64,000 nucleotides of DNA from Hericium rajendrae (Eukaryota; Basidiomycota; Agaricomycetes; Russulales; Hericiaceae): assembly GCA_033439255.1 (NCBI GenBank), contig JAVRDV010000018.1, forward strand, positions 186,001 through 250,000, given 5' to 3'. A model generated the notes under the pieces. That model was given only the letters and a program-made list of their open reading frames with translations. It searched no databases and was not told the origin of the DNA. Position 1 is the stretch's first letter; the number at the start of each line of letters is the position of its first letter. The position numbers were made by a program, and so were the translations under genes. This document shows positions 5,235-34,271 of this stretch, in pieces.

Positions 5235-5528
5235 AGAATGCATGTGAGTCCGTACGGAGGTGCAGGAAACAGTGAGGGGGGCAGGCAACAGCATGGACAT
5301 GCTGAAGGCAGCATGGGCACACTGCGCAGGCATGCTGGATGTGGTGCAGGGGCGTGTGAGTCCATACAGGGGCACAGAAGGCAGCAGGGGGTGCAAGCAG
5401 CGATATGGGCACATGAGAGGTGGCATAGGCACATACAAGGTGGCACGGGCATGCATACATTGGCACGGGTGCATGTGAGTCAGTGTGGGGTCGCAGAAGG
5501 TGCAGGCATGCACCAGACCTTGTAGGCA

Positions 5529-7397
5529 GTTTAAAAACCCTACCGGACCTTGTCGGAGTTGGGGTTACAAACCACCCAGCAACTTTTTCAGCTAGGTTAA
5601 AAACCTTTCATGGGTTAAAATCTATTAATCTTGGATAAGATTGTGGCTGATGGGATGATCCAATGGGGATATATTATATATGGCTGTGATCATATTTGAA
5701 AGAAGAATCCAAATATAGTACCCATAAGCTTATGTAATCAGGGGTAATTTTTCAATTTGGCAATTATATGATATATATATCATTTTGCTCCGTTTCTTAT
5801 GCTGATTTCAAATCTGATGGCTGATATGTTATGTAAACATGTATAATTTTTAAATTTGGTAACTATATGATATATATATGTTTGAGCTCCATTTTTGAAG
5901 CTAGATCTGAATATGATGACTATATGTTTATATAATCTATTATATATAGAAATTTTTGGTTTGACAATTGAATATATTCATTTTAGCACCATTTTTCAAG
6001 CCAAATGTGAATATAATGTCTGTTTACAGATTGAATGACTGTTTGAGCTTGCAACACTCATACTATGTTATGTAGTAATACAAATCAGTATATTGCTCAT
6101 TCTATTTTTTTGCTTGGCTATTCAGCTTGATAAAGTATCAGGCTAAATGCAGCTTCTCAAGACCTTTCCAACAGTGCTACATTCATATCAATCGAATAAG
6201 TATTGACTGAGATATTCACAAATCTTTGTTTTATACAAAGCATTTGGTCGACTATTTTGCAATTTGCAAGTGCATCTGTATAGCTATGCTGGTCAAACCA
6301 CTTGTCTGTCACTCACATGCCACATGGTTATGATTTAGGCATATATCACTTTTTTATATATGATTAAATATATACTATGTTCACATCAAAGAGTTGACAT
6401 TTATAAGAGCATAAGAGATCATAAGATATGATAGATAGATTGACTCAATCACCCATATATACTAACCCAACCCAACCCTATAGCCAACTTCATATCAGTT
6501 GTAATAAGTACTTATAGATAAATACAATCAAACATAATAGAAATGGAGAAATAATAGCAATTAGAGTATAAAAAAGTGATATATGTCTCAATCGTAGTCG
6601 CGTGGCATGTGAGTGACAGACAAGTAGTTTGACCAGCATAGCTATACAGATGCACTTGCAAATTGCAAAATAGTCGACCAAATGCTTTGTGTAAAACAAA
6701 GATTTGTGAATATCTCAGCCAATACTTATTCGATTGATATGAATGTAGCACTGTTGAAAAGGTCTTGAAAAGCTGCATTTAGCCTGATACTTTATCAAGC
6801 TGAGTAGCAAAGCAAAAAAATAGAATGAGCAATATACTGATTTGTATTACTACATAACATAGTATGAGTGTTGCAAGCTCAAACAGTCATTCAATCTGTA
6901 AACAGACATTATATTCACATTTGGCTTGAAAAATGGTGCTAAAATGAATATATTCAATTGTCAAACCAAAAATTTCTATATATAATAGATTATATAAACA
7001 TATAGTCATCATATTCAGATCCAGCTTCAAAAATGGAGCTCAAACATATATATATCATATAATTACCAAATTTAAAAATTATACATGTTTACATAACATA
7101 TCAGCCATCAGATTTGAAATCAGCATAAGAAACGGAGCAAAATGATATATATATCATATAATTGCCAAATTGAAAAATTACCCCTGATTACATAAGCTTA
7201 TGGGTACTATATTTGGATTCTTCTTTCAAATATGATCACAGCCATATATAATATATCCCCATTGGATCATCCCATCAGCCACAATCTTATCCAAGATTAA
7301 TGGATTTTTAACCCATGAAAGGTTTTTAACCTAGCTGGAAAAGTTGCTGGGTGGTTTGTAACCCCAACTCTGACAAGGTCCGGTAGGGTTTTTAAAC
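5529..7397. mobile_element. Foldback element with ~830-bp inverted arms
   Basis: The arms 5529-6357 and 6567-7397 are inverted copies of each other, about 97-98% identical by eye, separated by about 209 bp of unrelated spacer. Both ends read GTTTAAAAACCC going inward. The arms are AT-rich with ATATGATATATATAT runs and no coding potential; frames near 6490-6778 are short and unconvincing. The element sits inside the left arm of unit 1. No target duplication is visible. It could be a foldback (FB)-type element or two head-to-head copies of one repeat. Confidence 0.8.
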
Positions 7398-8073
7398 AAG
7401 CTACATGGACGCCTCAGGCATGCAGGAGGTGGTACAGGTATGCTGGCAGCAGCATGGACATGTAAGCATCAGCACAGAAGTCAGCAGGGAGGTGCATGCA
7501 ACTCTGTGCGTGGTGCTAGAGGCTGCAGGAGGGATGCAGACACAGCGTTGCTGGCATGATCGAGTCGACAGGGGTGCACAAGAGGCAGCATAGACAGTGA
7601 GAGGCAGTGCAGATGCACGAGAAGTGATGGATGATGCAGGAGGTGGCATGAATGTTAATGAGTGCAGTGTGGACATTGATGAGTGCAACATGGAGTGCTG
7701 GCATTGGCATGGCCACGCTAGAGGTGGTGTGAGCACAGAAAGCAGCAGGGAGGGCTCAGGAGGCAGTGCCAGTGTGCAGGAGGCAGCACAGAGGCTCAAG
7801 CATTGGCACAGATGCATGCAAGTCTGCACGGGGATGGAGAGGTAGCAGAGGTGCACAGGAGGCAGCATCAGTATGATCGAGGCTGCAGGGGTGCACGAGA
7901 GGCAGCATGGAGTGTGAGAGACGTTACAGGTGCACGAGAGGTGGAGGTGGTGGGTACATGCAGGAGGCAGTGTGGACATGCGCAAGTTGGCAGGGGTGTA
8001 TATGAGCCAGTGGGGACATGTGCAAGCTGATGCCAGATGCACAATTTGGCAGGGGCATGTGTAGTATCAAAAT

Positions 8074-8095
8074 GAGAGTATCAGGTGATACTCTC
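8074..8095. repeat. Hairpin H1 (left edge of unit 1 core)
   Basis: Perfect 10-bp stem GAGAGTATCA/TGATACTCTC with a 2-nt loop. On the minus strand it follows a splice-like donor GTAAGT and a CACTGAT branch-like site. Confidence 0.85.
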
Positions 8096-8511
8096 GATAT
8101 CAGTGCAAAAAAAAGATCAATGAAGTTGTTCAACTTACCTTATAGCCCTCTACACTATTGGCCATACCTTGCAAGTTTGAAAGACAAGGCATGGGATGTG
8201 TTTGGCTGCAGCCAAATGTTTTCCATGCATCTCTCGCATTTTTTTTTGTTCAAGTTGAAATGCACACAAGCATGGCTCGCTGTGCACTGATTCATTTGAA
8301 TAACCATATATGATCATTCAAATGAATTGGGCCACGTGGCTCCATGTGCAACAACTATGTGCATGACTTGACTTTGTTTGCCACATCATCTTCCACCTCT
8401 TCCTCACTGTGAAAATTTTTTTATAAGTATCTCTCATTCTTTTTTGATACTTTTTGGGCTGAGAACAAAGGTGATACCTATAGGTTTTTTATAGCTTTGT
8501 TGTCTAATCAA

Positions 8512-8545
8512 GAGAGTATCGCTCGACAATGTAAGTGATACTCTC
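8512..8545. repeat. Hairpin H2 (right edge of unit 1 core)
   Basis: GAGAGTATC pairs with GATACTCTC around a loop containing GCTCG. It is preceded at once by TCTAATCAAG, which looks like an intron 3' end. Confidence 0.8.
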
Positions 8546-9610
8546 ATTTTTGTGCACTTCACATGCTCCCACCGACTCCTGCACACCCACGCCATCTCCT
8601 GCATGCCCATGTCGCTGCCCGTGCACCCACATTGCCATCCATGCACCTGTGCCACTGCTCGTGCACCTCCACTGGCTCACTCACATCTGTGCTGCCTGCT
8701 GTGCACCAGTACCAACTTGCACATGCCCCTGCTGCCTCTTGCATACTGCTTGCCAACTCATGCACAGCTCCACCCATGCCTCTGCACTCTCATTCCCCTG
8801 ACTGACTCTCGCATGCTGCCACACCAACTTCTGTGTACTCCCACCAACTCCCCTATGCCTCCACTGACTCGATCATGTCAGTGCCACATCCCGTGCCCCC
8901 GAGAAGACTCACACGCCCCTGCAGTGCATCCAGATACCCATGCCACCTCAGTGTGGTCATGTCACCTCCAACGTGACCATATCAATGCCTGCACTGACAC
9001 CTGCACTGATGCCTGCACCAATGCCTGCATGCTTACATGCCCATGCTGATGCCTGCATGTCCACACCAGCTATTGCATGCCCATACAGACTTGCTCACAG
9101 TCACACAGACTCGCACACTCCAGCATGGACTCAACATGTCCTCTGCTGACTCCTGCATCTCTGTGCTGATGCTTGCATGGGGGCATCAACACCTGCACAG
9201 GGACACCAATGCCTGTATGTTCATGCTACTGTCAGCATGCTCACACCACTGTTAGTATGCCCATGCTGCCTTCCATGCTCCTGCACCTCTTGCACCCTCA
9301 CATCAACTCGCATATGTGCACAGATTCTTATATGTCCATGCTGCCTTGCATGTGCCCATGCCACTTCCTGCATGCCTATGCCACTGCTCGCACACCTGCG
9401 CCAACTACAGTGCACATCCACGCTGAAGCCTATATGTCATGCCAATTCTTGCATGCCTGTGCTGATACCCATGCACCTCTGCTGATGTGCATACACCTGC
9501 ACTGATGCCTGTGCATCTGTATCAAGCTCTGTGTACCTTTGCCACCTTCTGCACATGCCTGCCAACTTCTGCATGTCCCTCACTGATCCCCACACACCCA
9601 TGTTGCCTTG

Positions 9611-10937
9611 TGTAGTGCATGGAGCAAAACATTTCTCACAAGGCATTGGATACTGTAGGTGCAGAAGAATATGGGCTGGGAGATATACTAGTAGTGTACA
9701 AGATGTAATCAGCCAGAAATATAGTATCTTCTCTGGTATACTGCCAAAGATCTGATATAAGAGAGATGATAATGGATGATAACAAACTATACATAACTAT
9801 AGGTGGAATGGAGCTACCAAAGGGTATAGACTCTATTGTAGGTGTACTGTAGATACCATAGCTTTAAGCAGCTATGGTATATTTGCTCATCTACAGACTG
9901 CTACAGATCAGCTACAGGTAGCAAATATAGAGACCCACTTGTTACCAAGAGCTACGCAATCTATGGAATCTTTTTCAGCTACTGTAGGGTAATATTGCTA
10001 CTGTAGATCCCTGTAGAATCTACACCTTTTCTAGATGCACTTGATCTTGCTTTACACTATTGGAACTTCAATCTCTGACAACCCCAATGCTAATCTCTGC
10101 AGATCTTCATGTCAGTCTGTGGAGAGGGTCAAAATATGTTTTGATTTTGAATTCTTATTTGTAAATTAAGGGCAACTCAGTTATTGAGCACAAAACATCT
10201 CATATCATAGAAATAAGGCCAAGAAAAGTTGTCCAGTGTAACTATTGTATGTGGTCTTGCGATAAGAGGTTGAAACTGATAAACTCTGTACCAGTACCAA
10301 GTGATATCAGATGTCAGCAAACTGCATGTCATGTATGTCCTTCATCATTGTTCCAAATGTTTATAAAAGGACAGAAGTGGTGAAAGTAGGAAATGATGAT
10401 GGTGGCTATCAAATAAGCTACACTTCTGTTCCATCTTATGCTGTGCATCAGGATTACTTACTCATGCTGTCTATGATTCATTAACACACAGTGCACTAGA
10501 GTGCTGGCTGAGTATGGGTGAGCTCTTTAGATAACATTGATGATTTATATTCTACTGAACTCATACCTATAATTGGCAAAACAATTGAAAGCAAGGTGTT
10601 CTCATGACCTCCAACCTTCTGATACATTCCATACTATTCATGGCTTATAAGTATCTGACTTTTCTTAAATGGCCTCATATACAGTGTATGATATGGTTCA
10701 TCTGACAATATTTTCCATCCAGGGATTTCTTCTCTTTATGAATTAAATGCACTTGAACTCCACATCTACTGTCATTGTTAATGATATCTGATGTCAACTA
10801 GTGCTTGCTACTATATGCTGTCTCCTCAAAAGCTTGCTGTAGCACATGCATTTACTCAAAGTAGATGTATTCTCCAATAACTAAACTTGCTCCCTCAACC
10901 CTGCATGGATCTGCTACCAAGACTAGCAGAGCTCCAA
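9611..10937. other. Gene-free stretch with a CTGTAG/CTACAG cluster
   Basis: No gene seen. Between about 9835 and 10020 the motif CTGTAG or its complement occurs repeatedly. A similar cluster lies at 57363-57620 and a weaker one at 25540-25680. Such clusters are typical of subterminal transposase-binding repeats, but I could not define termini. Confidence 0.4.
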
Positions 10938-11890: not shown

Positions 11891-12313
11891 TGTCAAGACT
11901 CGGTCGTAGACAGCAGAGAACCACCCAAGTCACCAGCGATGATGGGAGCGAGAGAGCAGAGAGCGACTAGCAGCGCAGTGACCTGTATTGGAGGTACAGT
12001 ACGGTACAGACAAAATGGACAATCTAGGGAAATAGGCGAGCGACAGGGAGCCTATAAGTACTGGGACGACAATGGGAAAAGAACAATGGACACCATAACG
12101 GGTCGAACAATAGAGTGAGAACAATGGTGGCCAAAAGGAGAACAATAAGAGGGAGAACAATAGGATGTCCCAAAGGGGAACAAGGGCATGGGTGAAGGAT
12201 AGCCCCAGGTCATGTGAGGAAGTGAACATGTGATGGGGCTGCTGGAGCACATGACCAATGCGATGCCTTGATGGCAGAGAAGACGGCAGAGAGAAATGGA
12301 GCGATCCGTGACA
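11891..12313 (-). repeat. 3' LTR of the gypsy element
   Basis: On the plus strand it runs from TGTCAAGACT to CCGTGACA. It is bounded inside by the purine tract and outside by TAGGG. Confidence 0.95.
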
Positions 12314-15300
12314 TCACCCCCTCTCTAAGACGCACTTTCGCCTGGAGTGCGTGATGAGCATGGACAGGGTCGAGGTAGATGAGTCCACGAAGATTGGGAG
12401 CCTTGAGTGCATGCGGATGGCGGGTGTAGAAGTCGGTGATTGCACCATGGGCATTGGAAAGGGAGGTATGTGAAAGCCACTGATTTTCCAAATCAGGGTA
12501 GCCTGCCCATTTGACGAGATATTCAATGCTGCGTTTGTTCCGGGTGAGACGGGCATCGAGGACAGACTCAACTTCGTACTCTTCCTCGCCCTCCACAAGG
12601 TCAGGTGGTGGTGCAGGGAAGTTGGGACCATGAGCATCGGTTTCCTTGTAAGGGGACAACAGGGACGTGTGGAACACCGGGTGGATACGCCAGGTGGGCA
12701 GTAGCTTCAGTTGGTAAGAGACTGGGCCCAGGACGTCAGTGATTTCAAAAGGTCCCAGGCGTCGATCAGCAAGCTTAGCTTTGGGTCGTGTGGTTTTGAT
12801 GTTCTTGCCATCGAGCCAGACCTTGTCACCAACCTGGAAGTGGATGGTGTCATGCATATGGTCCTGGTTGTTGCACTTCATGAGATCAGCAGCTGTTTGA
12901 AGGCTGGCCTGGACCTCAGTGCGAAGTTGTTCAAGATGATGGAAACGATCCTCGACGGCGGGTGTAGACGATGTGGGGTTGACAGTGGGGATGGCAGTGG
13001 GAATATAGCCGAGGAGCATTTCAAATGGAGCTCGGTTAGTGGCGCTGTGAATACGGTGGTTGTGCGAGAACTCAGCGTAAGGGAGCCATTGGACCCAATC
13101 ATCCTGACGGTAGTTGCAGAAGGTACGAAGGAACTGCTCGAGTTCTTGATTGACGCGTTCTGACTCGCCGTCGGTCTGTGGATGATAGGCGGTGCTGAGG
13201 GAGGACTTGATACCAAGTTTGTCAAAGACACCACGCATGACTTTGCCTGCATACTGTGGGCCATGATCAGAGATGAGGCGTTCCCAGAGGCCATAGTTCC
13301 GATAAATCCTGTCAAAAAGGATGTCGACTGTGCCATCACTGGTAATGGTCTCACTACAAGGAGTGAAGGAGACGTGCTTTGTAAAACGGTTGACGACCAC
13401 ATTGATGGAGTCATAGCCTTGGCATTCTGGGAGTTTGACGATGAAGTCCGAGGTAATGTCTTGGAAGGGACGGGTAGGGATGGCATTGGGAATTGTTTCA
13501 ACATGAGGGCGGTGATTTTGAACCTTGGTGGCCTGGCAGGTAGCACAGCCATCAACATAATCGCGAACGAAGACGGACATACCGGGCCACCAGTAGTTGC
13601 AACTGAGGAGCTCGTAGGTCTTGTAGCGTCCGGGGTGACCAGCCATGGGAGTGTCATGATGCAGCTTGACGATGTCTCGACGAAGGTCCTTGTCAGCAGG
13701 GATGTAGACTTTGCCACGAAAGAGGATGAGGCCATCCTCGTAGTTCCATTCTTGGAGGTTCTTGACGAGGGAGCGAGGGCCGTTGTTCAGGATCACATCA
13801 AGAGCTTGGACGACCTCAATGTCCTTGGTCTTGGCATTGCGAATGCGTTGGCAGAGATCAGCATTGTCAATGGATTTGACAGCAGCTGGACGTGTAGCAC
13901 GAATCTGGAAGTACTTGGGGTCGAGGAGGACACAATCTGAGTTGTCGTCGTCCACCCCCTCTCTGTGGTCAGGTCGTCTCGACATGGCATCTGGCCGGTG
14001 GTGAATACCGGGTTTGTGGATCAAGGTAAAGTCGAAACGAGTGAGAAAGAGAGCCCAGCGAGCCTGACGATGACTCAGCTTTTGGGCAGACTTGAAGTAT
14101 TCCAGGTTCTTATGGTCGGTCCAGATCTCCACAGTATGGGGAGAGCCTTCCAGGTAGTGGCGCCAGGCTTCGAGGGCACGGATGATGGCCAGGAGTTCCT
14201 TGTCATAAATGTCGTAGTTGCGTTCAGGGGCGGTGAAGGCCTTGGAGATGTAAGCAACAGGGTGCCATTGCTCATCCTCCCCACGCTGGGATAGGATACC
14301 TCCTGTGGCATAGTCTGAGGCATCGACCTCAACCAGGTAGGGTTTGGATGGGTCAGGCATGATAAGGACTGGGGACGAGGTGAACGCAGCTTTAAGAGCC
14401 TCAAAGGCATGTTGACATTCAGGAGACCAGGCCCAAGGATGGTCTTTCTTGGTAAGGTCAAACATGGGACAAGTGACTTTGGAGAAGTCCTGGATAAAGC
14501 GCCGATAGAAGTTACCAAAGCCAACGAAGGACTGGACGTCCTTGACGTTACGAGGGGCAGGCCATTCAGCAATGCCTGCAACCTTGATGGGGTCCATGGC
14601 GAGCGTGTTATGGGAGACGATGAGACCGAGGAACTCAACTGAGGGCTGCTCGAAAGAGCACTTCTCTGGTTTGAGAAAGAGGTCATTGTCCTGGAGGCGT
14701 TGGAGGACCTTGCGCACAAGGTCGCGATGTTCTTCAAGGGTTTCGGTGAAAATGAGGATATCATCCATGTAGATGACGACTTTGCCCGTGTCGATGAGAT
14801 CCTTGAAAAGTTCATTCATCATTCCTTGGAACGTGGCAGGGGAGTTTGTAAGACCAAAAAACATCACCAGGGGTTCAAAGAGACCGCGGTTGGTTTTGAA
14901 GGCAGCTTTCCATTCGTCGCCCTCCTTGATGCGAACATTGTTGTAACCCCAACGAACATCCATCTTGGAGAAGACCTTGGCACCCTTGAGCTTGTCGACG
15001 AGTTCAGAAATGAGGGGCAGGGGGTATTCATTCTTGATGGTGCCTTTGTTGAGGGCACGATAGTCCTGGACGGGGCGTAGTTTTCCATCTTTTTTCTTGA
15101 TAAAGAAGAAGGGACTTGCCATAGGGGATTTGGAAGGACGGATGTAGCCTTTCTTGACCTGGTCATCAAGGAATGAATCGAGGTCCTCCTGCTCAGTGGG
15201 AGCCATGGGATAGACCTTGCAGGAACGGGGTTCAAAACCATCTTTCAGGTCGATGGCGTGATCCCAAGGGCGACGTTCGGGAAGGCGCTGGGAGGATTCC

Positions 15301-16316
15301 TCATCGAAAATGGGTTGGAAGTCCTGGTACTGAGGGGGAACCATCTCAGCAAAGGACTTCTCTGCAACACGGGTGGCCACACGCTCAGCCAGTTTCTGAG
15401 CATTGGTGAAAGAGCGACAGATACGGATGGTGTGTTGGTAGTCTGGGTCATCATCTGGAGGGGGTGGTGTGTCCCAGTCAGGGAGAACACCAGCCAGGCG
15501 AAGACCTTCTTCAACCCAGTCATCATCGACGTTAGGTCGCAGATCATCGTCCTCGGTGAACAGACGTGCAGGGAGTTTGGACAGGTGGATACGGCGAAGG
15601 CGGACACCTTGGACTCGGCGAGCAGGGATCACGTATTTGGGAAGTGGGGCAGCGACAAATGGCGGGGGCAGTGGGAGCGATGGAGGGGGGCAAGGTGGGG
15701 GGAGCAGTACAGCAGCAGTACTGAGGACTGGTGGATGAGGGGCTGATTGGCGGTGTTCTGTGCGAGTGGACAGGTTCTTGACTGGGGGCTTATTCAGGGT
15801 GCAAGAGGGAGGGCAGCGAGTCATGTCGACACGACGAGAGACCCAGTCAATTTCAGGGTTGTGTTCCTGTAACCAATCGGTCCCAAGGATAATGTCATAG
15901 TCACCAATGTCAACGAGATAGAACTCAGCTGTCTCCTCATGGAAGGACGTTGAGTCCTTGGCGTAAATGCGGATGTTCTGGTTGACTGAATAGTGGACCC
16001 AGCCCATGATGTTTTCGGAGTTGTCCACGTTGCGAACGGGAAAGGGTTTAGGGAGTTTCTTGAGGGGGAACTGGTGTTTCTTGGCAAACTCGGGGTGCAT
16101 AATGATGCCTTCTGCACCACTATTGAGAAGTGCCTCAGCATCGATTTGTTTCTTGATCAGGGCAGTGATAATCTTGGCCTGGAGCGTAATGGACGGTGTC
16201 TGACGGTTGGGCGTGATAGCAGACATGCGCAAAGACGATGGATACGATTGCTCACAGGGGTCGGATAGTACAGAGAATCGATTCGATGGATCAAAGAAAT
16301 GTTTCTTGCCACCCAC
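12314..16316 (-). CDS. Pol polyprotein of the gypsy element (fossil)
   Basis: One long frame of 1,368 codons that runs on into the LTR. Domains in order: retropepsin-like region (~45-150), proline-rich linker, reverse transcriptase with YMDD near 517, RNase H (~660-780), integrase with an HHCC zinc module (~885-930) and catalytic core (~950-1110), and a C-terminal chromodomain (~1235-1290, with YLVKWAGYP). The chromodomain places it among the chromoviruses. It starts 24 nt after gag ends. Confidence 0.93.
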
Positions 16317-16339
16317 GGACGACGTGACCGGGGGGCGTT

Positions 16340-17282
16340 TTAAAAACCCTCAACCATGTCCTTCAATGCAGCCTTCGCCTCTTCCCTCTCCTCCTCGCTC
16401 AAGTCCTTCAACTGCGATGATAAATCGGCGATGGACCTGTTGATGGCGAGGACAGCGAGGGCGGCGGCTGCATCTTCTGGAGCTACTCCCGGGGCAGAGC
16501 CGGTTTCTAGCGCTCGGACACGAGGGATTGGGGCACGGGGGTTGGAGTCGGCATTGAGGGGGCAGTCGTGGAAGCCATGGCCCTTCTGGCGGCAGCGGAA
16601 GCAATCGCCCTCACGCCTGAGGCACTCACGGTCAGGCTCCGAGAGTTTGGGCAGTTGAGCACCTGTAGCAGCAACTGTGCGGGATCGGCCAGTAGATGCA
16701 GACTGAGGGGAGCGAGTGCTCACCGAGGTGTGCCCAGTTGTAGGGCGGGGACTCTGGAACCGGGTGCGCATGAGGTAGGCAGCATTCCTGTCACGGGCCC
16801 TCACCTTCCACTCAGCCAGGGTGGTGGGCATTGGGTAGCTGTGCTGGCAATCATCCCGTAGGGCGCTGTTGAGGCCATGCAGGAACCAGTCGATCAGGGC
16901 CACGTCATTGTAGCTGGTGCGAGGGGCGAAGGACTCGAACTCGGTGATGTAGTCGACTACCGGGCGTGTACCCATCTGGAGGGTCTGGATGGCATGGGAG
17001 GCATCCTTGGAGTCATCAAGGGGGGAGAAGTCCAAGTTGAAGCGAGTTCGAAGGGTGGTGAGGTTGGCGTAACGGGGAACATGAGCTGGAGATGTTTTTG
17101 CAGCCACGAGATCGTCGTCCTCAAGGATCTCCTCGACACGCTGGGTGGCCCACTGGCCGGCAATGGGGCCCTGGCAGAGGTCAAGAAAGAGGGAGATCTG
17201 GGCGGTATCCTCTTTATATCTGACAGAGTTGGCACGAAGGTATAAGCAAATACGCAGCTGGAATTCCTTGGACTTGGAATGA
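16340..17282 (-). CDS. Gag, 3' part (fossil)
   Basis: Retrotransposon gag-type sequence followed by one CCHC zinc knuckle (CFRCRQKGHGFHDC) and an acidic tail. The frame is cut off at 17283 by the CATCTG-family insertion. Confidence 0.85.
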
Positions 17283-18072
17283 CATCTGAAAAATGTACCA
17301 ATGCTATGTTGCTCTATATGACTTACATAGATCTCATAGTTTCATAGCAATCCCCTTTTATACATAGGGCCCCCATAGCTGAAAGGCAGTCTATAACAAG
17401 CTATGTAGTCAAATAGGATTGCTATGCCTAGCTATGATAGCTATGATAGCTATAGAGGCTATGTTAATTATACTATGTATGCTCATTATTATATCATATC
17501 TAGCTTGATAGGATTGCTATCTAATATATGTTATCTCTGCTTGATATGTAAGTCTATCATGCTATGAAGATTTTATTAAAATCTAAAATTTTTATAGCCT
17601 TCATAAACTTGTCACACATCAGATAGAAAAAACATCGAAAATTGTGTAAACAATATATTTAAGATCATATGAATAAGTATACATGCTATACTAAAATATA
17701 TAAATTCATAAAGACTATTCTAAATCTATTTAGATTACATGTCAACACATAAGATATGAACACAAGTCATAAGAAGGCTTACCAGATATAAGAAAAGTCG
17801 AAAATAATCTAATATAAATGACACATCATTAACATGAGTTACAACACATATAAAAGAAGACTTACCCCTAAAGAGAACCTAAAGAGAACAAAAAGCGAAA
17901 ATTGAAGCCTATAAAATCAACATGTCAACAAGTAAATACTAATGAACAATAAATAAAAACATAAGAAGCTTACCTAAGATAAGAAAGTCGAAGAAGAACG
18001 AGGAGAGGAAGGAGGGCGGACGACGGGAGATGGTAGTGGTTGAGAGACAAGAGAGAACGCGCGTCGTGCGAG

Positions 18073-18080
18073 CGTTATAA
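18073..18080 (-). promoter_or_regulatory. TATA-like motif, copy A
   Basis: TTATAACG on the minus strand, followed by a pyrimidine-rich leader (TTCTCTCTTGTCTCTCAACC) and then TTAGGTAAGC. Copies B and C have TATATAAAG at the matching place, so it probably marks a promoter reading outward toward the terminus. Confidence 0.5.
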
Positions 18081-18518
18081 ACCCGAGTTCGGGTCTGCCC
18101 GGCGGAGCCCGAATTGTGGCTGCCGAGAGCCGCGGCCGAGGCTAGCTTTGAGATCTTCTTAGGTTAGCTTGACTGTCCATTGAAGTAGAGTAGAGTAGAT
18201 ACGTTTGTAGCTCATTCATTGTGCTCAAGCAAATGATACATGCCTTCTGTTTTTTTCTCTGAATTTGAACGGTTTTATTTGATTTGTTGAAGTCGAAAAC
18301 GCCAGACGCGCGAGTCGAGTGCTGTGGCTGCACTCGACGCGCGACTTAGGAGGCGTCCCAGTCACGAAAAAACATTCTGTCCAGCAAATTGCCGGAGGTG
18401 CATTGCAATAACTCCAGCAACTGGCAACTAGCCAGTTGCTGGACATATTATTATTCACACTCACAAAGCTGCACCGGGAGGTGCCGCGAAAACATATAAT
18501 ATTCCAGAAAAAACATAT

Positions 18519-18545
18519 CGGCCGAGATCATAAGGATCTCGGCCG
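18519..18545. repeat. Subterminal hairpin of element D
   Basis: An 11-bp perfect stem, CGGCCGAGATC/GATCTCGGCCG, with loop ATAAG, at the boundary between the left terminus and the CpG-rich arm. Confidence 0.8.
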
Positions 18546-21500: not shown

Positions 21501-21567
21501 GAGGCGGGCAGCGCGCGCATTCGTGTAGCCGAAATCGGGGCGCTGCGCGTAGCCGAGGCGGGAGGTG

Positions 21568-21689
21568 GTGCCGAGCAGGGGCGGAACGGTGCCGAGCAGG
21601 GGCGGAACGGTGCCGAGCAGGGGCGGAACGGTGCCGAGCAGGGGCGGAACGGTGCCGAGGTGGGGCGAGCACGGTGCCGAGCCGAGCCG
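21568..21689 (+). repeat. 21-bp tandem repeat in element D
   Basis: Four near-perfect units and one to two diverged ones of GTGCCGAGCAGGGGCGGAAC + G. The period of 21 keeps frames open, which explains the repetitive translations. Confidence 0.9.
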
Positions 21690-22046
21690 ATGTAGTAAGC
21701 ACACGGTTGGAGTAGTGTACGGCCCGGTAAGCGGCCCCGAGCTACATTATAGTATGAGTGCATAATAATGAGTGCGGTAAGTTGCTGGCCAACAAGTTGC
21801 TGGGTGTATTGGAATGCACTCCCGGCAATTTGCTGGTCAACAAAATTATTCAAGGGCTGGTACTGGTGCGACTTAGTGCATCTCTTCTCTCCGTCTCCCA
21901 CCTCATCTCCCCTGGTTCCCCTGCCCTCTTTCTTTACACAAGCAACGGACGACTTCAATCGAAGGCCGCGAGGGTTAGCAGGAGGACCGAGGACCTCCAG
22001 GTAAGTAAAACCATGTTCTTTTTTTATGTCTTCGTGCTAATCAGAT

Positions 22047-22076
22047 GAGTATCGTTCGTTTGCGCGAACGATACTC
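22047..22076. repeat. Hairpin H5 (copy A)
   Basis: A perfect 12-bp stem, GAGTATCGTTCG/CGAACGATACTC, with a 6-nt loop. It directly follows GTGCTAATCAG, the 3' end of a splice-like intron starting GTAAGTAAAA near 22000. Confidence 0.9.
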
Positions 22077-23221
22077 GTATGTCTTATCGTGACCGTGCCT
22101 CACGTTCGACACCCCGCGGCCACGCCCATATCACCACCCCATCCCACTCCCTCGACAACGCCGTCGACGACGCCGACGTCGGGTCTCGTTGCCGCGGCAA
22201 CGAGACTCGACTAAACGTCGCGCGACGTGCTCTGCCCGGCTCCCACCCTCGCCCTCGCTCCGCCCTCGCCCTCGCCCTCGCCCTCCCCTCGCCCTCGCCC
22301 TGCCCAACGTCCTCGCCCCCGCTGCCAGCGCACGTGCGTGTGGCCCCGCGCGCATGCGTGGGGCCACACGTTGCCGGCAACTCCGTGCGCACGGCCGCGG
22401 ACGATCGCCAGCGCACCCACCATGCCCACGCTGCGCTGGCAGCTGTGGACTGCGCGCGCGGTCACGCACGCCGGCGGACGACCGCGCCAGCACATACACG
22501 CATGTGCCGGCAGCCGCAGACGATCCCGCCAGCGCACACGCGCGCCCGAGGCTACGCGCTGTTACGGGCGACCCGAACAGCGCGCACACGGCCGCGAACA
22601 GCCCCGCAGCACCCGGGCTGTCACGCACGGCCCCGCCCCGCCTGTGCACGACCGCAGGTGACCGCGCCAGCGCGTGTACGCACGCACGGCGAGGCAGCCG
22701 CGCAGCGACCCCAACGGCGCGCACACGGCCGCGGACGGCCCCGCCAGTGCGCGGGCTATCAGTACAGTCCCGCCTCACCTGTGCACGGCCGCAGATGACC
22801 GCGCCAGCGCGTGTGCTGTCGGCGGACGGCCGCGCCAGCCCATGTGCATGCGGGCGGGCAGTTGCGTCTGCACGCGCGAGGCCATGCGCACCGGCGACGG
22901 CGTACGCATGCCGGCTGCAGGGCTGCGCACGCCGATGAGGGCGCGCGCGCAGCCGCGTCTGCGTGCACGAGGTAACACACGTCGGTGGCGGACGACTGCG
23001 CTAGCACCCGCATGCGTGCACACGCTGCGCGAACAGCTGCGACAACGGGCGCTACGTCGTCACTGTGTGCCGTTGTGCATGCGCGAGGTTCGTTTGGAGC
23101 AGCTAGATACTTTGTAATGTAACAGACCAGTTTGTAGTACTAGTTACATTTTAATTCAATGATTTAGACTCCACACCTTTCATGCCTATTTGGCTCAGCA
23201 CAGTAAGCATAGTATTGATAG

Positions 23222-23370
23222 CACTGCCCACATCACTCACTTTTTCCCAAGATATAGTGTAGAAAATATTTTAGAAATAGATAGTCTTTCTTCCTAGGGA
23301 AGAAAGAATATCTTTTTCTAAGGTTTTTTCTACACTATATCTTGGGAAAAAGTGAGTCATGCAGGCAGTG
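23222..23370. mobile_element. CACTA-like MITE, 149 bp
   Basis: Inverted arms of about 45 bp begin CACTGCC and include ACTCACTTTTTCCC...; they fold into a near-complete hairpin. TAG is present on both sides (23219-23221 and 23371-23373), a 3-bp duplication. CACTG ends plus a 3-bp duplication fit the CACTA (En/Spm) superfamily. It is inserted in the right part of copy A. Confidence 0.75.
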
Positions 23371-23583
23371 TAGGAGCCATAGCTCCCCTGAGCAAGTATG
23401 ATAGCTCTATGTATTTGACAGTACTGGCTATGTAGGCTATGTATTTTACACTATCTGCTATAGAGGCTATGATAGCCCTAATAGCTCTACATAGCTTAGC
23501 AAGTTAGAGCCATAGACTCCATAGCTTACCTATAGGACCCATAGCTTGACCTTTTGCTATATAAAATTTAGATTTTTCAGATG

Positions 23584-25730: not shown

Positions 25731-26822
25731 GTTTGGCTGCAGCAAAACATTTCTCACATGTCAATTTGCAAGAGTTTGTGGTGATGTGTTGAGCATGTGC
25801 AGGTCGGAGGGGGATGTGTGCATGGTTCAGCACAATGTGCATGGGTCAGTGGGAATGCATGGGAGTCAGCAGGAGTGTGCGCAAGTTGGTGGGGCATGCA
25901 CGAGTCAGCAGTGGCCTGCAGGGATCAGCACACATGAGTTGGCAGCACTGCGCAGTGGGTCGGAAGGGCTGCGTGCAAGTCAGCAGCAGCATGTGTGCCT
26001 AAGCGAGCTGTGGAGTGTGCACAAGTTGGCACTGGCAGGGCATGCAGGGACCGGCGAGGGCATGCAAAGGTCAGAGGGGGTGTGTGAAAGTTGGCGGGGG
26101 CTTGTGTGGTTCGGCAGTGGTGCTCACAAGTCAGCAGCAGTGCGCACAAGTCAACAGCAGTGCACACAGGTTGGTAGGGGCTTGCTGGGTCAGCGATGAT
26201 GCTTATGGTTGACAGGGGTGTGCGAAGGTTGGTGGGGGCATGCAGGAGTCAACGAGGGTGTGCGGGGGTGTGTGAGTTGGTGGGAGCGTGTATGAGCCGA
26301 TGGGGCTGTACATGAGTCAGTAGGGGGCTGTGCGAGTCAGAGGGGGACAGCGCATGTTGGTAGGTGCACACATGTGTTGCCGGTGATACGAGCAGGTCGG
26401 TGGGGGCATATAGAGGTTGACGGAGGTGCACGCAGGTTGGCAGGGATGGGTGGGTCAGTGTGGATGGGTGCAAGTTGGCGTGTATGTGTCTGAGCCATGG
26501 GGGCTGTACACGAGTCGGCGGCAGTGTGTCTGGATTGGCAGCAGTCAGCGGCAGCGTGCGTGGGTCAGCTGTGACATGTGCAGGTCGACGGGGGTGTATG
26601 CATGTCGGCTTGGATGAGCAGGGGTCAGCAGGGTTGTGTGAGTTGGCAGGGTTGCATGAGTCGGTGGAGATGCACAAGTTGGTGGGGGTGTGCGAGTCAA
26701 CAGGGGTGCACATGAGTTGGCGGAGGTATACAGAGGTCGGTGGGAGCATGCAGAGGTTGGTAACCATGCATGGGGTTTGGTAGTGGGGCACATGGGTCGG
26801 TGGCATGTCGAGCAGTTCAGTC

Positions 26823-26858
26823 GAGAGTATCGCCCATATTTGAACAGGCGATACTCTC
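26823..26858. repeat. Hairpin H3 (left edge of unit 2 core)
   Basis: Perfect 12-bp stem GAGAGTATCGCC/GGCGATACTCTC with a 12-nt loop. Confidence 0.9.
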
Positions 26859-27022
26859 TGTATTAGTGAAAAACTAGGTCAAAAGAACAGTTTTACTCAT
26901 TATGTGGCCATTTGCAACTCCTTCCTATATTGTGTCCAGCTCAGAATACCTGAGAAATGTGTGTTAGTTGTCCATTGACAGAGAAAAATGTACCTTGCAA
27001 GTAAGAAAAAACAGCTGTGGGA

Positions 27023-27047
27023 CATGTTTGGCTGCAGCCAAACATTT
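27023..27047. repeat. Palindrome TGTTTGGCTGCAGCCAAACA
   Basis: A 20-bp perfect palindrome with CA and TTT outside. Related copies lie at 8198-8220 (one half slightly changed), 25731-25752 (one half changed) and 63415-63438 (one central change). Confidence 0.8.
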
Positions 27048-27333
27048 CCCATGTGCCCTCTGCTTTTTTTCTTTTTGTTCAAAGTCGAATCGCGCACCGT
27101 GCTGTTTTGTTGCCCATATATGGTGCATAAAATGAATCGGGCTGCGTGGCTCCATGTGCTCAACTTAGGGCATGTTCTGTGTCGCATGTGCCACATTGTG
27201 CTTCGTCCTACTTCTCACCTCCAACTCATCTCCTCCACTTCATCTTTTCTCAGATGCTGCCCAGGTTTTGCTTGGTATAGAATGCTGCAAGGTGTGTAAA
27301 AACACCCCTCTCCCATAGTGCAGGATACTAACT

Positions 27334-27367
27334 AGAGAGTATCACTCATTATCGAGCAATACTCTCT
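27334..27367. repeat. Hairpin H4 (right edge of unit 2 core)
   Basis: AGAGAGTAT...ATACTCTCT with an inner CTC/GAG pairing. The CG pairs found at the same place in other copies read CA on both arms here, as expected from CpG decay. It directly follows ATACTAACTAG, a near-perfect branch site plus acceptor. Confidence 0.85.
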
Positions 27368-29366
27368 TTTCATCTTCTTTAGATTTTCATCTGTGCCTGC
27401 ACCCATGCCAGTTGTCCAAAACTCGCACCAACTACCCACCAATGCCTCGGAGGTGTGTGCTCACCCGTCACATGCATGCGTTAGCTCATGCCTGCACCCA
27501 TGCTTGGCTGTTGTCCTGCCAGCACATCCAATGTGGCATGGCTCACACCCCCACTGCTGACTTGCTCATGCCCCGCCAATGCCCTGCACTGCCGCTGCCT
27601 CCCTCATGCCCTCGCCACCTCTCCCATGCCCATGCCACCTCCTGCACACCCACACTGACTCACGTACATCCACGCTGACTCGCCCATGCCCACATGCCTG
27701 CACCGACTCGCCCACTCCTGTGCCAAGTCGCTTGCTCATGCCCGCGCTGTGCTGACTTGTACGTGCACGTGCTGAGTCACCCGCATCTGTGTCAACCTCG
27801 TGCTCGTGCCTGCACCTGCACCAACTCGCCTGTGGCCATGCTGCCTCACTCATGCCCCCACTGACTCTCATGGCCTCCCACATGCCCTTGACTCCTGTGC
27901 GGCCTCGCTGACTCCCTGCACCTGCGCAGCCTCTCCTGTGCTCCCACTGACCCCTCTGTGCCTCTGCTGACCCCCTTGTGCACGCGCGGCCTCGCTCATG
28001 CCTGCGCTGATGCCTACATGCCCGTGCCGAGTCCCCTGTGCCATTGTTACCTCTGATGCACCCCCACCAACTCCTGCATGCCCGCAGGGGTGAGCAAGTT
28101 GGCACGGGCATGCAGCAGTTGGTGCGGGTGGATGGGAGGTGATGGGACCCACATGGGTGGCTGCACGGGTGGATAGGAGTCTGGTGGACATGCTGGAGCC
28201 AGTAAGGGCATGGAGATTCAGCAGGGGTGTGCGAGAGGCAGCAGCCGACTCCTGCATGCTGGAGCTGACTCTCATGTGCCCCTGCTGACTCGCTTATGCC
28301 AATGCTGACTCCCACGTGCCCCTATCACTCTCGCACACTGGTGCTTCCTGGTGCGCACCCCTGCTGCCTCCCGCATATATGCACCGATACCTGCATGCCT
28401 GCACTGACTGCACCATGCCCATGCCAACTCCTGCCTGCCTGCACTGCCTTCCATGTGCTCCCACTGCTTCTCACCTGCCTGTACTGTTACACTGACTTCC
28501 AAACACCGGCACAGACTCACGTGTGCCCACCTGATGCCCACACACTTGTGCTGACTCCAGCATCAGGAAAATGTAGAGGTACTATATAGTCCTATCAGAG
28601 TTATATAGAGTTCCTAGGGCCATAGCATTGCCCTTTACTCCATAGTCTATATAGCTAAGGAGAGATGCTATATAGTCCTATAAAGCTCAAGAGGGATGCT
28701 ATGAAGTGCTATCATAGCTATCATAGCTAACTATGCAGCTATTATAAGACATATAGCTATAAAGGCTATGAATATTATGTCACTGATATAAGCTATGTCC
28801 ACAAGATAGAATTGACATTTCTATATAAGCTATGTTCATAAGGTAGACTTGACAAATCTATAAAAGCAATGAAAGCTATTCATATTATCTAATCTACAAT
28901 CAGACTACAAACAAATTTTCATACAAGGTTCAAATCAACAAGACATTATAATTTTAGATTATAATTCATCAGATAGACTAATACATGAAAGAGTATTACA
29001 TTATACTAAAAAGTTAACAAGCCTATATATATTTACAAGTCTTAAGTCAAACTATATCAAATAAAAATAAAAATAAACAATATAAAACTTATCTAAGACA
29101 ATAAAAAGTGAAAATGAAACCTTAAAGTCAACTGATTGTAAGTAAACAATAGAAAGGAAGAGCACAAAAGATAAGACTTACCAAAGAGAAGAAAAAGTGA
29201 AAATGCTCATATCTACAAAGATAATATATAAGCATAAAGATTAGTTAACAATATAACAACATAAAAACTTACTGAACAAAGAAAGTTGAAGAGAGGAAGG
29301 GAAGAAACTGACAGAAGACGGGAGATGGTAGTGGTAGAGAAGAGAGAAAGGACGCATGTTGTGCAT

Positions 29367-29375
29367 GCTTTATAT
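29367..29375 (-). promoter_or_regulatory. TATA box, copy B
   Basis: TATATAAAG on the minus strand at the place matching the TATA motifs of copies A and C. A pyrimidine-rich leader follows. Confidence 0.5.
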
Positions 29376-29820
29376 ATGAGCATGTCAGAGCCCGAATTGT
29401 GGCTGGCCAGCGGTTGCTGGATGGCACAGCAGAGGCTACTGATTTAGATTTCAGTAAGTTAGATTGACTGCTCAAGGGCATATATCATAGTAGATACCTA
29501 TATAGCTCATTTATCGTGTAGGATCAATGATTTTATATGTGCCCCATTTTTCTCGTATTTTCAAAGATTTTATTTGATTTGTTGAACTCGAAACTGCCAG
29601 CTACATGAGTTCTGCACTTGACGCATGACTTCGTGCATTTCTTCATCCAGTACTCCCTCCACCCAACCTCCATCTCTCCCTCCCTCTCCCTTCGTCTCTC
29701 TCCTCTCTCTCTACACGCAAGATACAATGTTGCTCGATGGTCAGGACAGCTAGCAGGGCACTCGGGGGGGTCTAGGTAAGTAAACACATGTTTTTTTTTG
29801 TCTTTTCATGCTAATCAAAT

Positions 29821-29851
29821 GAGTATCACTCGTTGACAATGAGCAATACTC
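29821..29851. repeat. Hairpin H6 (copy B)
   Basis: GAGTATCACTCGTT pairs with AATGAGCAATACTC. The C-A mismatches stand where other copies have C-G, i.e. CpG decay. It follows ATGCTAATCAA. Confidence 0.85.
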
Positions 29852-31316
29852 GTGTGTCATCTCTCGGACCTCCGCTCGCTCTCGACAACCATCTGAAAAA
29901 TCTGAAATCTACATAGCTACCAGCCAATGCTATTCCTGGTTGCATAGTGCTATGGTTGCTATGTAGTTGGGCCACACAGCTATACAGGACTATGGTAGCT
30001 ATCATAGCTATCATAGTCATGAGTGATGGGTATATAGTAATACATAGTGATAGGGCACTACTATGCCTGCTATGTAACCTATGTGTTTTTAGTCTCCCTC
30101 TATGTATCCTATAGATACTATGTTCGATACAGAGCTTCCAAGGTTACTATGGACTCTCAGGTTGCTATAATATCTATAGTTGATGTAGAGACTATGATTT
30201 CGAGCATACTGTATTTGAAACAGATCAAACTAAATTATTTTTAACTACTACTACATTCAAGTATACTACATGACATGCGCGCTTGCAAAGTGACAAGGCG
30301 TGCATGTACACAAGGGTGCAGCTAGTGCGCACGACACTGCATGCGAGGTGCAATGGCACGCACGAAGCTCGCAACCCGTGCGCAGGAGTGCACATGCTGC
30401 GGGGCCGGCGCACGATAGGACTGGCCGCGCTATGCGGCAGGCCTGCACGCAGGGGATAGGAGGGCTGTGCGTGAGGCACGGCGGGGTGTGCATGAGGTGC
30501 TGGGCTGCAGCGGGCCCATGCACGATGCGGCAGACGTGCACGCAGGAGGCGTGGGGCTTGGGGTCTGTATGCAAGGTGGCGGGCCTGTACACGAGGTGTG
30601 GGGCCCGTACGTGAGATACTGGGCCACCACAGGCTCATGTGCGACGTGTCATGCCTGTGTGCGGGAGACGCAAGGTGCACAGGGTGTGTGTGCGAAGCGT
30701 CAGGGATGGCAGGCCCATGCGTGAAGCACTGGCTTTCCATGGGCTCGTGCATGAGGCTGCACATGGGGCGCAGGGTCTGCGCGAGATGCGGAGGGCGTGC
30801 GTGAGGCGTCGGGGGTGGCAGGCCCATGCACGAAGTGTCGGGTGACCACGGGCCTGTGCACGAGGCACTAGACTGCCACGGCTTTGTGCGTGACAGGTAG
30901 CCTGCACGCCAGAAACGCAAGGTGCGTGAAAGGTGTGGGCGAAGGTTGAGGGTGGCGGAGCCGGGCACGAGGCACAGGGGCTGGGCACGAAACGTCAGGT
31001 ACCGCGAACCCGTGCACAAGTCCTTGGCTTATCGTGGGCCCATGCACAACGCAGCAGGCATGCACGCGAGGCACGATGGCATAGACATCGCAAGGATGGA
31101 CATGGCCCTGCGCAACGTGCGTGTGCTGGCATACCTGTCCCAGGTTGCGGACGACCGTGCGCACTCCGCTGATCGTGGTCATTGGAGGTGGCACGCTGGG
31201 TGCTAACGATGTGGCAGCATGGCAGCGTGGCAGTGAGGTCGGTGGAGGGCAGGGTGTTGCAAGATGGGCAGCAGTCGGAGGCAAGAGTGGATGAGGGCAC
31301 GGGAGGACAAAAGAAG

Positions 31317-31350
31317 TCGAGAGTATCACTCGTTCGAGCGATACTCTCGA
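31317..31350. repeat. Hairpin H7 (copy C)
   Basis: A 16-bp stem with one mismatch, TCGAGAGTATC-A-CTCG/CGAG-C-GATACTCTCGA, with a 2-nt loop. On the minus strand it follows GTGAGTAAAA and GTGCTAACATCG. Confidence 0.9.
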
Positions 31351-31791
31351 TGTTAGCACGAATTAACGGAATAAAAGGGTTATTTTTACTCACTTTCGAG
31401 GCCCTCTGCATCCTACTGAATCCCTCTGGCATGTGATTCGATGAGTCAGAGGGAGAGGAGGAGGTGGAGAGTGGAGAGCTGTGGAGGTGATAGAGATGAA
31501 GAGACAGATGAGCTTCGACACACGTTTCGGTGCTTCAGCCACCGAACGAGCGAAGGTACGTTCCTCGAGCCACTACAAATCAAATAAAATCACATAAATT
31601 CAGAGAAAAACAAGATAGCTATAAATTGTATATACAATTCGAACGAATGAGCATTATAAGTATCTACTGTATGTGAAGCTCAAAGGGAGCCAAGTCCATC
31701 TAGTGAAGTCTGGCGCCCAGTCTCGACGTGATGCACGGCAAGTGCCTGGCAGCCGTGAATCCCGGCTTCACCTGGGATTCCTATATAAAGC

Positions 31792-31800
31792 TCGTGCGAT
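31792..31800 (+). promoter_or_regulatory. TATA box, copy C
   Basis: TATATAAAG, followed by GCTCGTGCGATGTGCGTTGC. Copy A has the same layout (GCTCGCACGACGCGCGTTCT), which supports a conserved promoter and leader. A splice-like AGGTAATCTT follows near 31972. Confidence 0.55.
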
Positions 31801-32232
31801 GTGCGTTGCCTCTTGCTCTTTAACCCCCACTGTCTCTTGCCACGTCGACACTTTCGTCGACATTCTTTGCTCGCTCGTCGCTGTTCCTTGCTCACTTGTC
31901 ACTGTTCCTTGCTTGCTTGTTGCTGTTTCTTGCTTGCTCGTTGTTACTTCTTGCTTGTTTGTTATCTCTAAGGTAATCTTCTAATTGTTAATCTCTTATT
32001 GCTTATACTAATATTTAGTTTTTTAGATTTCGCTTTTTGTTACTTTGATAAGTTCTTATGTGTTATCTTTATCTTCTAAGCCTCATGTTTTCTTATCTTT
32101 TCTTATTTAGTTTCTTATATTCTTTTACTTATCTTATCTTATCATGTTTTCTTATCATATCTTATATTCTTGCACTATCTTATCTTATCTTTTTATCTTA
32201 TCTTATCTTATTATTTTCTTACTTATATTTTC

Positions 32233-32351
32233 ACTTTTTAGTTAGTAGTAGTGTTTGTTTGTCACGGGTTCAAGCTAAATTTAAAGAAATTGCGGTGGAC
32301 GCTAAATGTATTGATGATATCATTTACTTTTTAGTTAGTAGTAGTGTTTGT
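32233..32351 (+). repeat. 26-bp direct repeat around a foreign-looking segment
   Basis: ACTTTTTAGTTAGTAGTAGT plus GTTTGT occurs at 32233-32258 and, identically, at 32326-32351. The piece between them (32259-32325) keeps CpG and differs in composition from the TTCTTATC-rich surroundings. Confidence 0.8.
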
Positions 32352-34271
32352 GATATATCAATATAATCTTGATGCATTGAAACACTATATCTGTGTGATC
32401 ATATATTATTAATTTTGATATGATTGTAGAAAAGATTTAAAGTTCTAATAAATTGTATTGCTCTAATATATATATCAGATCTACATATAAAATATAAGAT
32501 ATATGAGACACATATTGAATGTAGGATATGTGAGACATATATTATACATAGGTTATGTGAGACACATACTGAATATAAGATATGTAAGACATATAAGCCT
32601 TATAGCTTTAATAGATACTGATAGCTTTCATAGCTAGTCATACTATCATAGTTACATAGTCAGCTCTCATAGCTATGATAGTACTCCATAGCACTCCATA
32701 GCATCACCTTTGAGCCTCATAGCACTACATAGCATCTCTCTTTGGCTATGTGGGCTATACAATAAAGGGCGATACTATGAAGCTAGGAGATCTATGTAGA
32801 CTTTATAGAGCTATGTACCACTGGCAAATTTTTCAGATGACCCGAGCCCATACCCATGAGCCTGCCACATCCTCTCCCCTCGACAAGGCTGTCGTCGACA
32901 CCGTTGTCGAGTCTCATTGCTATGGCAATGAGACTCGACCAAACATTGTACGATGCGCACTCACCCCTGCTCACCCTCCACCACATCACCATGCCCACGC
33001 CCATGCCCGTGCCCATGTCCACACCCATGCCCATGCCCACGCCCGTGCCCCACCTCCGCTTCAAGCTCAAGCTATGCCCATGCCCACATCTCCGTATGCA
33101 GTCCGGTGTGTGACTTCACCTACATACACCAGCGTTTGCATGTGCATGGCCCTGCTTGCATGAACAGGGCCACGCATGCTGGCAACTAAATGCGCATGGC
33201 CGCAATGATCACATCAGCATATGCACGTACAGATGCATGGTGTGGGCAGTCATGCATGGTCCTGCTTATGCACGAGCAGCCAACGCATGCTGTGCATGTG
33301 GGGCCATGCCTGGTGATGACTGCATGCCCCCACTGGTGGATAACTGCACGGCACATGGTGCAGATAGTCACGCACGGCCCTGTCTGCATGCGTGAGGCCA
33401 CACACACTGATGACAGCACGTGCATGGCCACACATGATGGCCAGCACGTGCTGGTCCACGCACACTGGTGATGGTGCCATATGGCTGCAGATGACCACAA
33501 TGGCATGGACATGCTGCACGGGCAGCTGCAGATGGTCCCACCAGCCTGGGCATACACGTGCAGGCAGTCATAGATAACCCGCCTGCACATGGGTAGCTAT
33601 TCACAGCCAGGCACGACAGCAGCTGGGTGTGCACGGCCATGCACAACCCCAGTCGCAGGGCTTTGTTGTGTCGTGCACGGCCTCCCTTTTCGTGGGTGAT
33701 GCCGCCGTGTCATGCATGACTCACGCACCTCACGTGTGACCGTCAACCCGCACGTACTGCCACCAACCTGTGCGTACCACCGCCAACCCGTGCATGGTCC
33801 CGATGTCTTGACATGGCCCATGCAGGTGCACGGCCCTTGCATTCTGTGTGTGTAAGCTGCCGCACCCCACACATGGCTGTGCCGTGTCATGCACATGTAG
33901 CATCTACTACTATATTTACTTGTGTGTTGTAGCTACAATGTCTCTTAGTAGGCATTATTGAATACATAATTTTTGTCATGCTTTTAAGTGTATGATATGA
34001 GACTTTTGACTGGATGGTTATGGAGTCTAGTGCACTTAGTGTAGGGACCATAGGAGCCATAGGGACCATAGCATGCCAACAAGTTTATATAGCAATCATA
34101 GCTGCCCCTCAAGAGTATATAGCACTATTTAACATCTACCTACTGCTATGAAAGCTATGATAGACCTCATAGCCCTACATAATTGAGAAGGATAGTTACA
34201 TAGACCTCATAGTACTTTGATAGTACACATAACTTAATATGAAGCTATATTAAATTCCAATTTCCCTGATG

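Follow-up and report, generated by a model that had tools for sequence, protein, structure and literature searches.

A hairpin at predicted splice acceptors recurs inside non-autonomous transposons, very probably of PlavakaB type, in Hericium rajendrae

What are the repeated, gene-less units of the agaricomycete Hericium rajendrae that carry a hairpin where an outward-pointing, intron-like sequence ends? The locus that raises this question is a stretch of 64,000 nucleotides, hereafter the window (contig 18, JAVRDV010000018.1, positions 186001-250000), in a genome of 46.8 Mb on 19 contigs. A first-pass annotation, made from the sequence alone, had described units 1 and 2, with hairpins on both sides of a core, copies A, B and C, with one hairpin each, and D, with none, and had regarded them as no described element type. 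We found that the hairpin units are real and that they form a family of hundreds in this genome. Those with readable ends are very probably the interior of non-autonomous PlavakaB-type DNA transposons, since their termini and target duplications fit published PlavakaB elements, and the claim of an undescribed type is not supported. That the units lack a protein signature was confirmed, none being found in them.

All seven hairpins reported at outward intron ends are present: in unit 1 at 8074-8095 (minus strand) and 8512-8545 (plus), in copy A at 22047-22076 (plus), in unit 2 at 26823-26858 (minus) and 27335-27366 (plus), in copy B at 29819-29853 (plus) and in copy C at 31319-31348 (minus). 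With at most two mismatches allowed, GAGTATCGCTCG occurs 12 times in the window against 3.4 expected, a count that none of 100 shuffles reached. The outward intron signals are there as well, the GTRAGT donor being intact at four of the seven hairpins and a CTAA branch site at six; the donors have decayed at hairpins 8512, 26823 and 27335, and hairpin 8074 has CTGAT for CTAA. The stem of copy A is indeed perfect, with 12 bp and no mismatch, and D gave no match to a covariance model of the hairpin, in keeping with its description. Built from other copies, this model also revealed an eighth, decayed intron and hairpin of GAGTCTC-like sequence at 4337-4423 (minus strand; full-length match, 33.7 bits, E 1.8e-4), beyond the units listed before. 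A search of positions 4800-35000 against Rfam at gathering scores returned no matches.

Across the genome, the pattern of an intron end followed by the hairpin was found at 428 sites, at least two of 100 listed being overlapping duplicates, against 4 sites for the reversed pattern. The exact hairpin, in a pattern that allows a loop length of 2 to 8, occurs 155 times, against 0 in the control; the same exact pattern had no match in IMG/VR.

To compare copies we used the window and 20 fetched loci (L005-L024), each of which was picked for holding the hairpin, so that they are no gauge of the share of such transposons that carry one. As judged from sequence signals, one module is common to different subfamilies: a divergent promoter-like core, a short predicted first intron, a hairpin at its acceptor, and a C-skewed arm. 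The stem of the hairpin is 12-14 bp long and begins at the acceptor. Upstream sequence was available for 34 hairpins, of which 29 have GTRAGT, 31 CTAA and 27 CTAAY. With near-copies removed, 28 of 35 hairpins align across donor, branch site and hairpin; this alignment omits four L005 near-copies, the edge copy L014:9862, window hairpin 8074, and L013:8891, which has no GTRAGT. When 338,814 bases were scanned for an intron plus a hairpin with no stem sequence specified, 25 sites were returned, 23 of this hairpin type and two subterminal palindromes, against one in the reversed control, and the distance from donor to branch site across those 23 was 34-40 nt. An AG ends at most 2 bases from the stem GAGT, in addition to the AG inside GAGT, in 30 of the 34 hairpins; in the remaining four, GAGT itself supplies the AG nearby. 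Subfamilies whose arms can no longer be aligned still keep the intron signals and the hairpin.

The arms had been described as skewed in composition, and at 34 of the 35 hairpins in the window and the fetched loci they are C-skewed in the sense direction; the sole exception is the copy B hairpin (29821), whose arm is cut by the nested copy C. They are often CpG-dense, and their composition is retained where their sequence is not. Over 600 bp, GC content ranges from 0.46 to 0.73 and the ratio of observed to expected (o/e) CpG from 0.30 to 1.41: among the 28 arms of the fetched loci the ratio is 1.20-1.41 in 16 and 0.67 to 1.18 in 12, compared with 0.30 in the arms of unit 1 and 0.96 in the host region. 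In many one-hairpin copies a GAGGGCC-like motif closes exon 1. Further palindromes, around GCTGCAGC, lie near the outer end of the arm at L009:3282-3317, L014:5995-6035 and L020:6185-6222, and L014 and L020 have another palindrome in the core.

A hairpin and arm stand on both sides of the core in units 1 and 2, L009 and L014. Divergent spliced transcription from the core is predicted from these conserved signals. In 14 one-hairpin elements, GTAAGT occurs 22 times leftward against 5 times rightward, often behind TTTTCGCTTTTT; copy C has none. Given this leftward excess, a second side of micro-exon-like character seems to be present in the one-hairpin elements. The TTTTCGCTTTTT stretch recurs shortly before leftward GTAAGT (for example in L011, L017 and L023), as though micro-exons had been repeated.

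Which transposons carry this interior? The assignment to PlavakaB follows from CATCWG..CWGATG ends, 2-bp target duplications, subterminal repeats and empty sites. According to the available text of Kojima 2025 (PMC12730594), PlavakaB elements have CATCA..TGATG termini and target duplications of 2 or 3 bp. Here the ends are CATCAGA or CATCAGG in family 1, L022 and copy B, and CATCTG, which departs from the published end by one base, in most others; 2-bp target site duplications (TSDs) were found, but they are mismatched in L005 and copy B, and none was detected for unit 2 and certain other elements. CATC-type ends with an exact 2-bp TSD surround 19 of 30 hairpin sites (one per unit, without the edge copy and one L014 partner), the pair in L012 being doubtful, whereas six scrambled termini used as a control gave 0-2 of 30, none with agreeing inverted repeats. 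Mobility is evident from five copies that are 91-97% identical over 2.6-2.7 kb, lie at different sites, share a terminal inverted repeat (TIR) and stop abruptly at CATCAGA...TCTGATG; the end in L013 reads CATCAAA, and the 2-bp flanks match in four of the five, the exception being L005 (ct/ca). Full and empty sites, compared, show 2-bp duplications of GC (L018) and CC (L022). At the ends of the 14 one-hairpin elements, CTAT/ATAG-type motifs number 10-24 per 220 bp, against 0 or 1 in the arms and 0.7 in the host.

The Plavaka transposase domain (PF18759) has 132 matches in the genome. The longest frames of 20 transposase loci, compared by tblastn with the window and L005-L024, gave two hits, neither of them a transposase in an element: the first is a KDZ match in L018, beyond its hairpin element, and the second pairs 30 aa in unit 1 (4942-4853) with a short L027 repeat outside the Plavaka domain. 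At L027:2621-2832 an inverted-repeat insertion of about 210 bp lies beside the Plavaka domain, and its arms correspond to a 92-bp stretch close to the left end of unit 1 (window 4851-4942). A covariance-model search of the 20 transposase loci found no hairpin. We rejected the view that autonomous Plavaka elements regularly contain the hairpin, as in the fully listed part of the genome (C1, C2, C3 to 2.24 Mb) it lies within 10 kb of 3 of 10 Plavaka domains, with no common spacing; these distances were taken to 78 hand-picked domains of the 132, with short partial and second-exon matches omitted.

Does the stem matter as a paired structure? Compensatory changes across copies, which the first-pass annotation had made a test of its proposal, are present. 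In 31 of the 35 hairpins (30 of them distinct), 94.3% of cells pair and both-sided changes occur at 7 pairs; there are 23 double-change cells against 7.0 in shuffled data, a number reached in 0 of 500 shuffles, and sliding the partner abolishes the signal. At stem pair 5, 74 sites across the genome carry changes on both sides, while one-sided changes number 0 and 0. CpG decay of the stems was likewise borne out, but the mismatches are not mostly C-A, as had been thought: among the matches listed by both searches (the overlap of the two within C1 to C6:2897761), the stem is perfect in 70 copies, while its CpG decay is purely G-U-forming in 24 and purely A-C-forming in 30. Covariation together with a decay of resident copies that is blind to pairing suggests that the hairpin is maintained in transposing lineages and not in resting copies, and that any selection would act there and not on the host. 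A family of host RNA genes was ruled out, since decay strikes resident stems about as often in one direction as in the other and several copies lie inside other transposons.

The best explanation as a whole, to which we assign a probability of about 0.5, is that the units are PlavakaB-type interiors containing a cis-acting non-coding transcription module. A cis-acting role is proposed since an element without genes can be selected only for what helps its own copy. The element's own promoter would make a non-coding spliced RNA from the module; transcription and splicing would hold the copy in an active state, with its CpG-dense arm free of methylation, and a Plavaka transposase supplied in trans would then be able to use the ends. 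The hairpin would fold in the nascent RNA over the acceptor AG and tune or time the first splice, and resident copies would later be methylated and then decay. That a copy stays open through its transcription and splicing, and that the hairpin modulates the first splice, is a tentative suggestion made by analogy with the GC-rich first exon of En/Spm, whose plan a promoter-like core, a spliced leader and a CpG-dense arm resemble. Doubtful is its most specific form, in which a covarying hairpin over the first 3' splice site would gate splicing, thereby transcription and methylation of its own copy, and hence accessibility to transposase.

The genome has 46 TET/JBP matches, 38 of them above the cut-off, and DNA methylase matches were also found. 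Its KDZ, Plavaka and TET/JBP matches point to an agaricomycete. Six weak TET/JBP-like matches that score below the threshold of the family are divergently oriented to a Plavaka domain at a distance of 7.0-7.7 kb (C2:33965, C2:3866436, C4:1122998, C4:348987, C9:549710 and C14:67218). These pairs hint at a possible TET-carrying autonomous Plavaka element with a divergent promoter, which might be the source of the module.

The rival that survives best, although we consider it unlikely, is that the hairpin is a palindrome of duplex DNA to which a protein of the transposon or of the host binds (an activator, an anti-silencing protein or a transposase accessory), its position at the intron end being incidental. 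The palindrome is nearly perfect and holds four CpG sites, its decay is about equal in both directions, and anti-silencing proteins that bind non-coding regions of transposons are known, as the available text on VANDAL and VANC describes (PMC10398659). A rigid dimer site would nevertheless sit uneasily with a loop whose length ranges between 2 and 8 in the pattern used; pair 5 changes on both sides, whereas a half-site would be free to change by itself; no solitary exact half-site turned up in the 20 loci and the window; and the stem comes after the acceptor in a single orientation.

It is improbable that the module is a functionless remnant of an autonomous ancestor's 5' end, hitch-hiking between active ends. 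The weak TET-like matches divergent to Plavaka domains would suit it, as autonomous relatives may have a divergent promoter, and so would a decay of resident copies that ignores pairing. Against this stand the persistence of intron signals and hairpin in subfamilies with unalignable arms, the compensatory stem changes, and the exact stems, 155 of which remain. We think it very improbable that the stem owes its perfection to template switching from one arm to the other (palindrome correction) rather than to selection for pairing: the pair 5 tally is very lopsided for selection alone, but many copies keep uncorrected CpG decay in one arm, and the fixed place at the acceptor would go unexplained.

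Hardly any weight can be given to the arm as a coding exon of a fast-evolving Arg/Pro/Ala-rich protein, which we ruled out on its shifting frames and frame-breaking indels: some copies hold long open frames (342 aa in L016), but high GC lengthens chance frames, exon 1 has no conserved ATG (one stands at its end in some copies only), the open frame varies from copy to copy (28 of the 35 hairpins), and none of eight indels in the family-1 arm (1, 2, 16, 19 or 20 nt) is a multiple of 3. CpG decay makes up 145 of 170 substitutions in the same arm, and most likely the arm is non-coding and has been methylated.

Several points weigh against a cis-acting module whose hairpin works as paired RNA in PlavakaB-type elements. 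The stem sequence itself includes AG, so its closeness to an acceptor is partly automatic, and hairpin L013:8891 lacks GTRAGT despite surroundings that look perfect. Two of five covariation measures are unremarkable, namely further pair types (reached in 99 of 500 shuffles) and double-change pairs (24 of 500), and the lack of one-sided changes at pair 5 may come from a few ancient events or from copying between arms. The near equality of G-U-forming and A-C-forming decay means that pairing in RNA is not kept up in resident copies. The autonomous Plavaka loci were covered to at most 1.5 kb from the transposase domain, a range that showed none of their termini. Finally, the predicted introns and the putative roles in transcription and methylation are read from sequence signals, and the role of the hairpin is a proposal.

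How are these elements arranged in the window? Unit 1, a two-hairpin and probably PlavakaB-type non-autonomous element, spans 4822-10037, with the TIR CATCTGAAAAA / CATCTAGAAAA and an exact 2-bp duplication CA; parts of it align to L020:3181-6637, which is sited in sequence resembling a long interspersed nuclear element, with the duplication TC. The core of unit 1 lies between the hairpins, at 8096-8511; the most AT-rich stretch of the unit, at 5518-7408, is a separate inverted-repeat (foldback-like) insertion of about 1.9 kb, with 760-nt arms that are 97% complementary and 103-nt arms that are 94% complementary. The core has outward intron signals on both strands (minus, GTAAGT and CTGAT; plus, a decayed GTGATA and CTAAT before 8512). 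The left hairpin, short and decayed, was found by the covariance model though outside its training set (E 1e-7), and the right one by pattern search and covariance model. To the right lies a C-skewed non-coding arm at 8546-9616 (plus strand), depleted of CpG (o/e 0.30 over the first 600 bp).

Copy A, a one-hairpin element at 17283-23583 (plus; TIR matched at 13 of 14 positions, TSD GA), sits in a Gypsy retrotransposon with Gypsy domains in 12210-17338. Its signals predict an intron, GTAAGT..CTAATCAG, at 22001-22044 (plus); the hairpin was recovered by pattern and structure scan, and a GC-rich arm follows at 22077-23100 (plus; over the first 600 bp, GC 0.73, skew -0.23 and CpG o/e 1.30). Nested in copy A at 18378-21839 is D, a different element recognized by inverted ends around CAGCAAATTGCCGG and by its flanks, with no hairpin of this type. 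Unit 2, with two hairpins, was placed at 25740-28560 from its hairpins and arms; its outer ends are unplaced, a search for a TIR pair with a TSD having found none, and its right side abuts copy B. Both its hairpins were found by pattern and covariance model; the donor GT of the left has decayed, and the donor of the right reads GTGTGT. Copies B and C do not lie side by side, as had been supposed. Copy B (28561-34271, plus; TIR CATCAGG..CCTGATG, with unlike flanks AG/TA) is broken up by copy C, a one-hairpin element nested within it (29890-32839, minus; TIR matched at 13 of 14 positions, TSD AC). The hairpin of B was identified by alignment and covariance model and that of C by structure scan and covariance model; B aligns to L022:3667-6374 (TSD CC, empty site in L023). 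Stretches of about 380 bp with AAGGGGAACAAGGGATATCC-type repeats, at 1948-2328 and 34919-35300, are inverted relative to each other, 33 kb apart and 94-95% complementary.

By their termini and duplications, then, the elements belong to a known kind. The new part, as far as we searched, is the conserved interior, with an acceptor hairpin retained across subfamilies whose arms cannot be aligned. A literature search found no conserved acceptor hairpin in such transposons, a search on splice-site hairpins found nothing comparable, and the word "hairpin" has 0 occurrences in PMC12730594 and PMC9674265. Gene-less elements are usually assumed to retain their ends alone; hundreds of them here retain intron signals and a paired hairpin in mid-element, and something besides the ends may count for the spread of such elements. 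Should the module indeed hold copies in a transcribed, unmethylated state, this fungus, with its TET/JBP-rich genome, would offer a testable case of cis-acting anti-silencing RNA.

Four known systems invite comparison. With PlavakaB elements (CMCT clade, fungi) the units share CATCA..TGATG termini, here also CATCTG, 2-bp duplications, and Plavaka transposases in the genome; they differ in that no transposase was found in them and in their non-coding interior with intron signals, hairpin and CpG-rich arm, which the available text of PMC12730594 does not mention. In En-1, exon 1 has 82% GC and is a proposed methylation-sensitive control site, according to the available text of PMC2613891. The En/Spm (CACTA) elements resemble ours in a region, rich in GC and dense in CpG, that follows the promoter (a putative one in our units), in subterminal repeats and in a distantly related transposase. 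Unlike the gene-less units here, En/Spm is autonomous and protein-coding, and methylation control would be carried over to these units by analogy. We know of no hairpin at the first acceptor of En/Spm. VANDAL transposons are of Mutator type. Their non-coding regions targeted by VANC are likewise fast-diverging, repeat-rich parts of DNA transposons linked to escape from methylation, but they are bound by protein, and neither a hairpin nor a splice site is mentioned in the available text (PMC10398659). Miniature inverted-repeat transposable elements, like the units here, are non-autonomous, bounded by TIRs and high in copy number; we rejected this class for units that measure 2.6-6.3 kb (2637-6301 bp among the 14 one-hairpin elements, copy A being enlarged by the nested D) and have a structured interior conserved across subfamilies.

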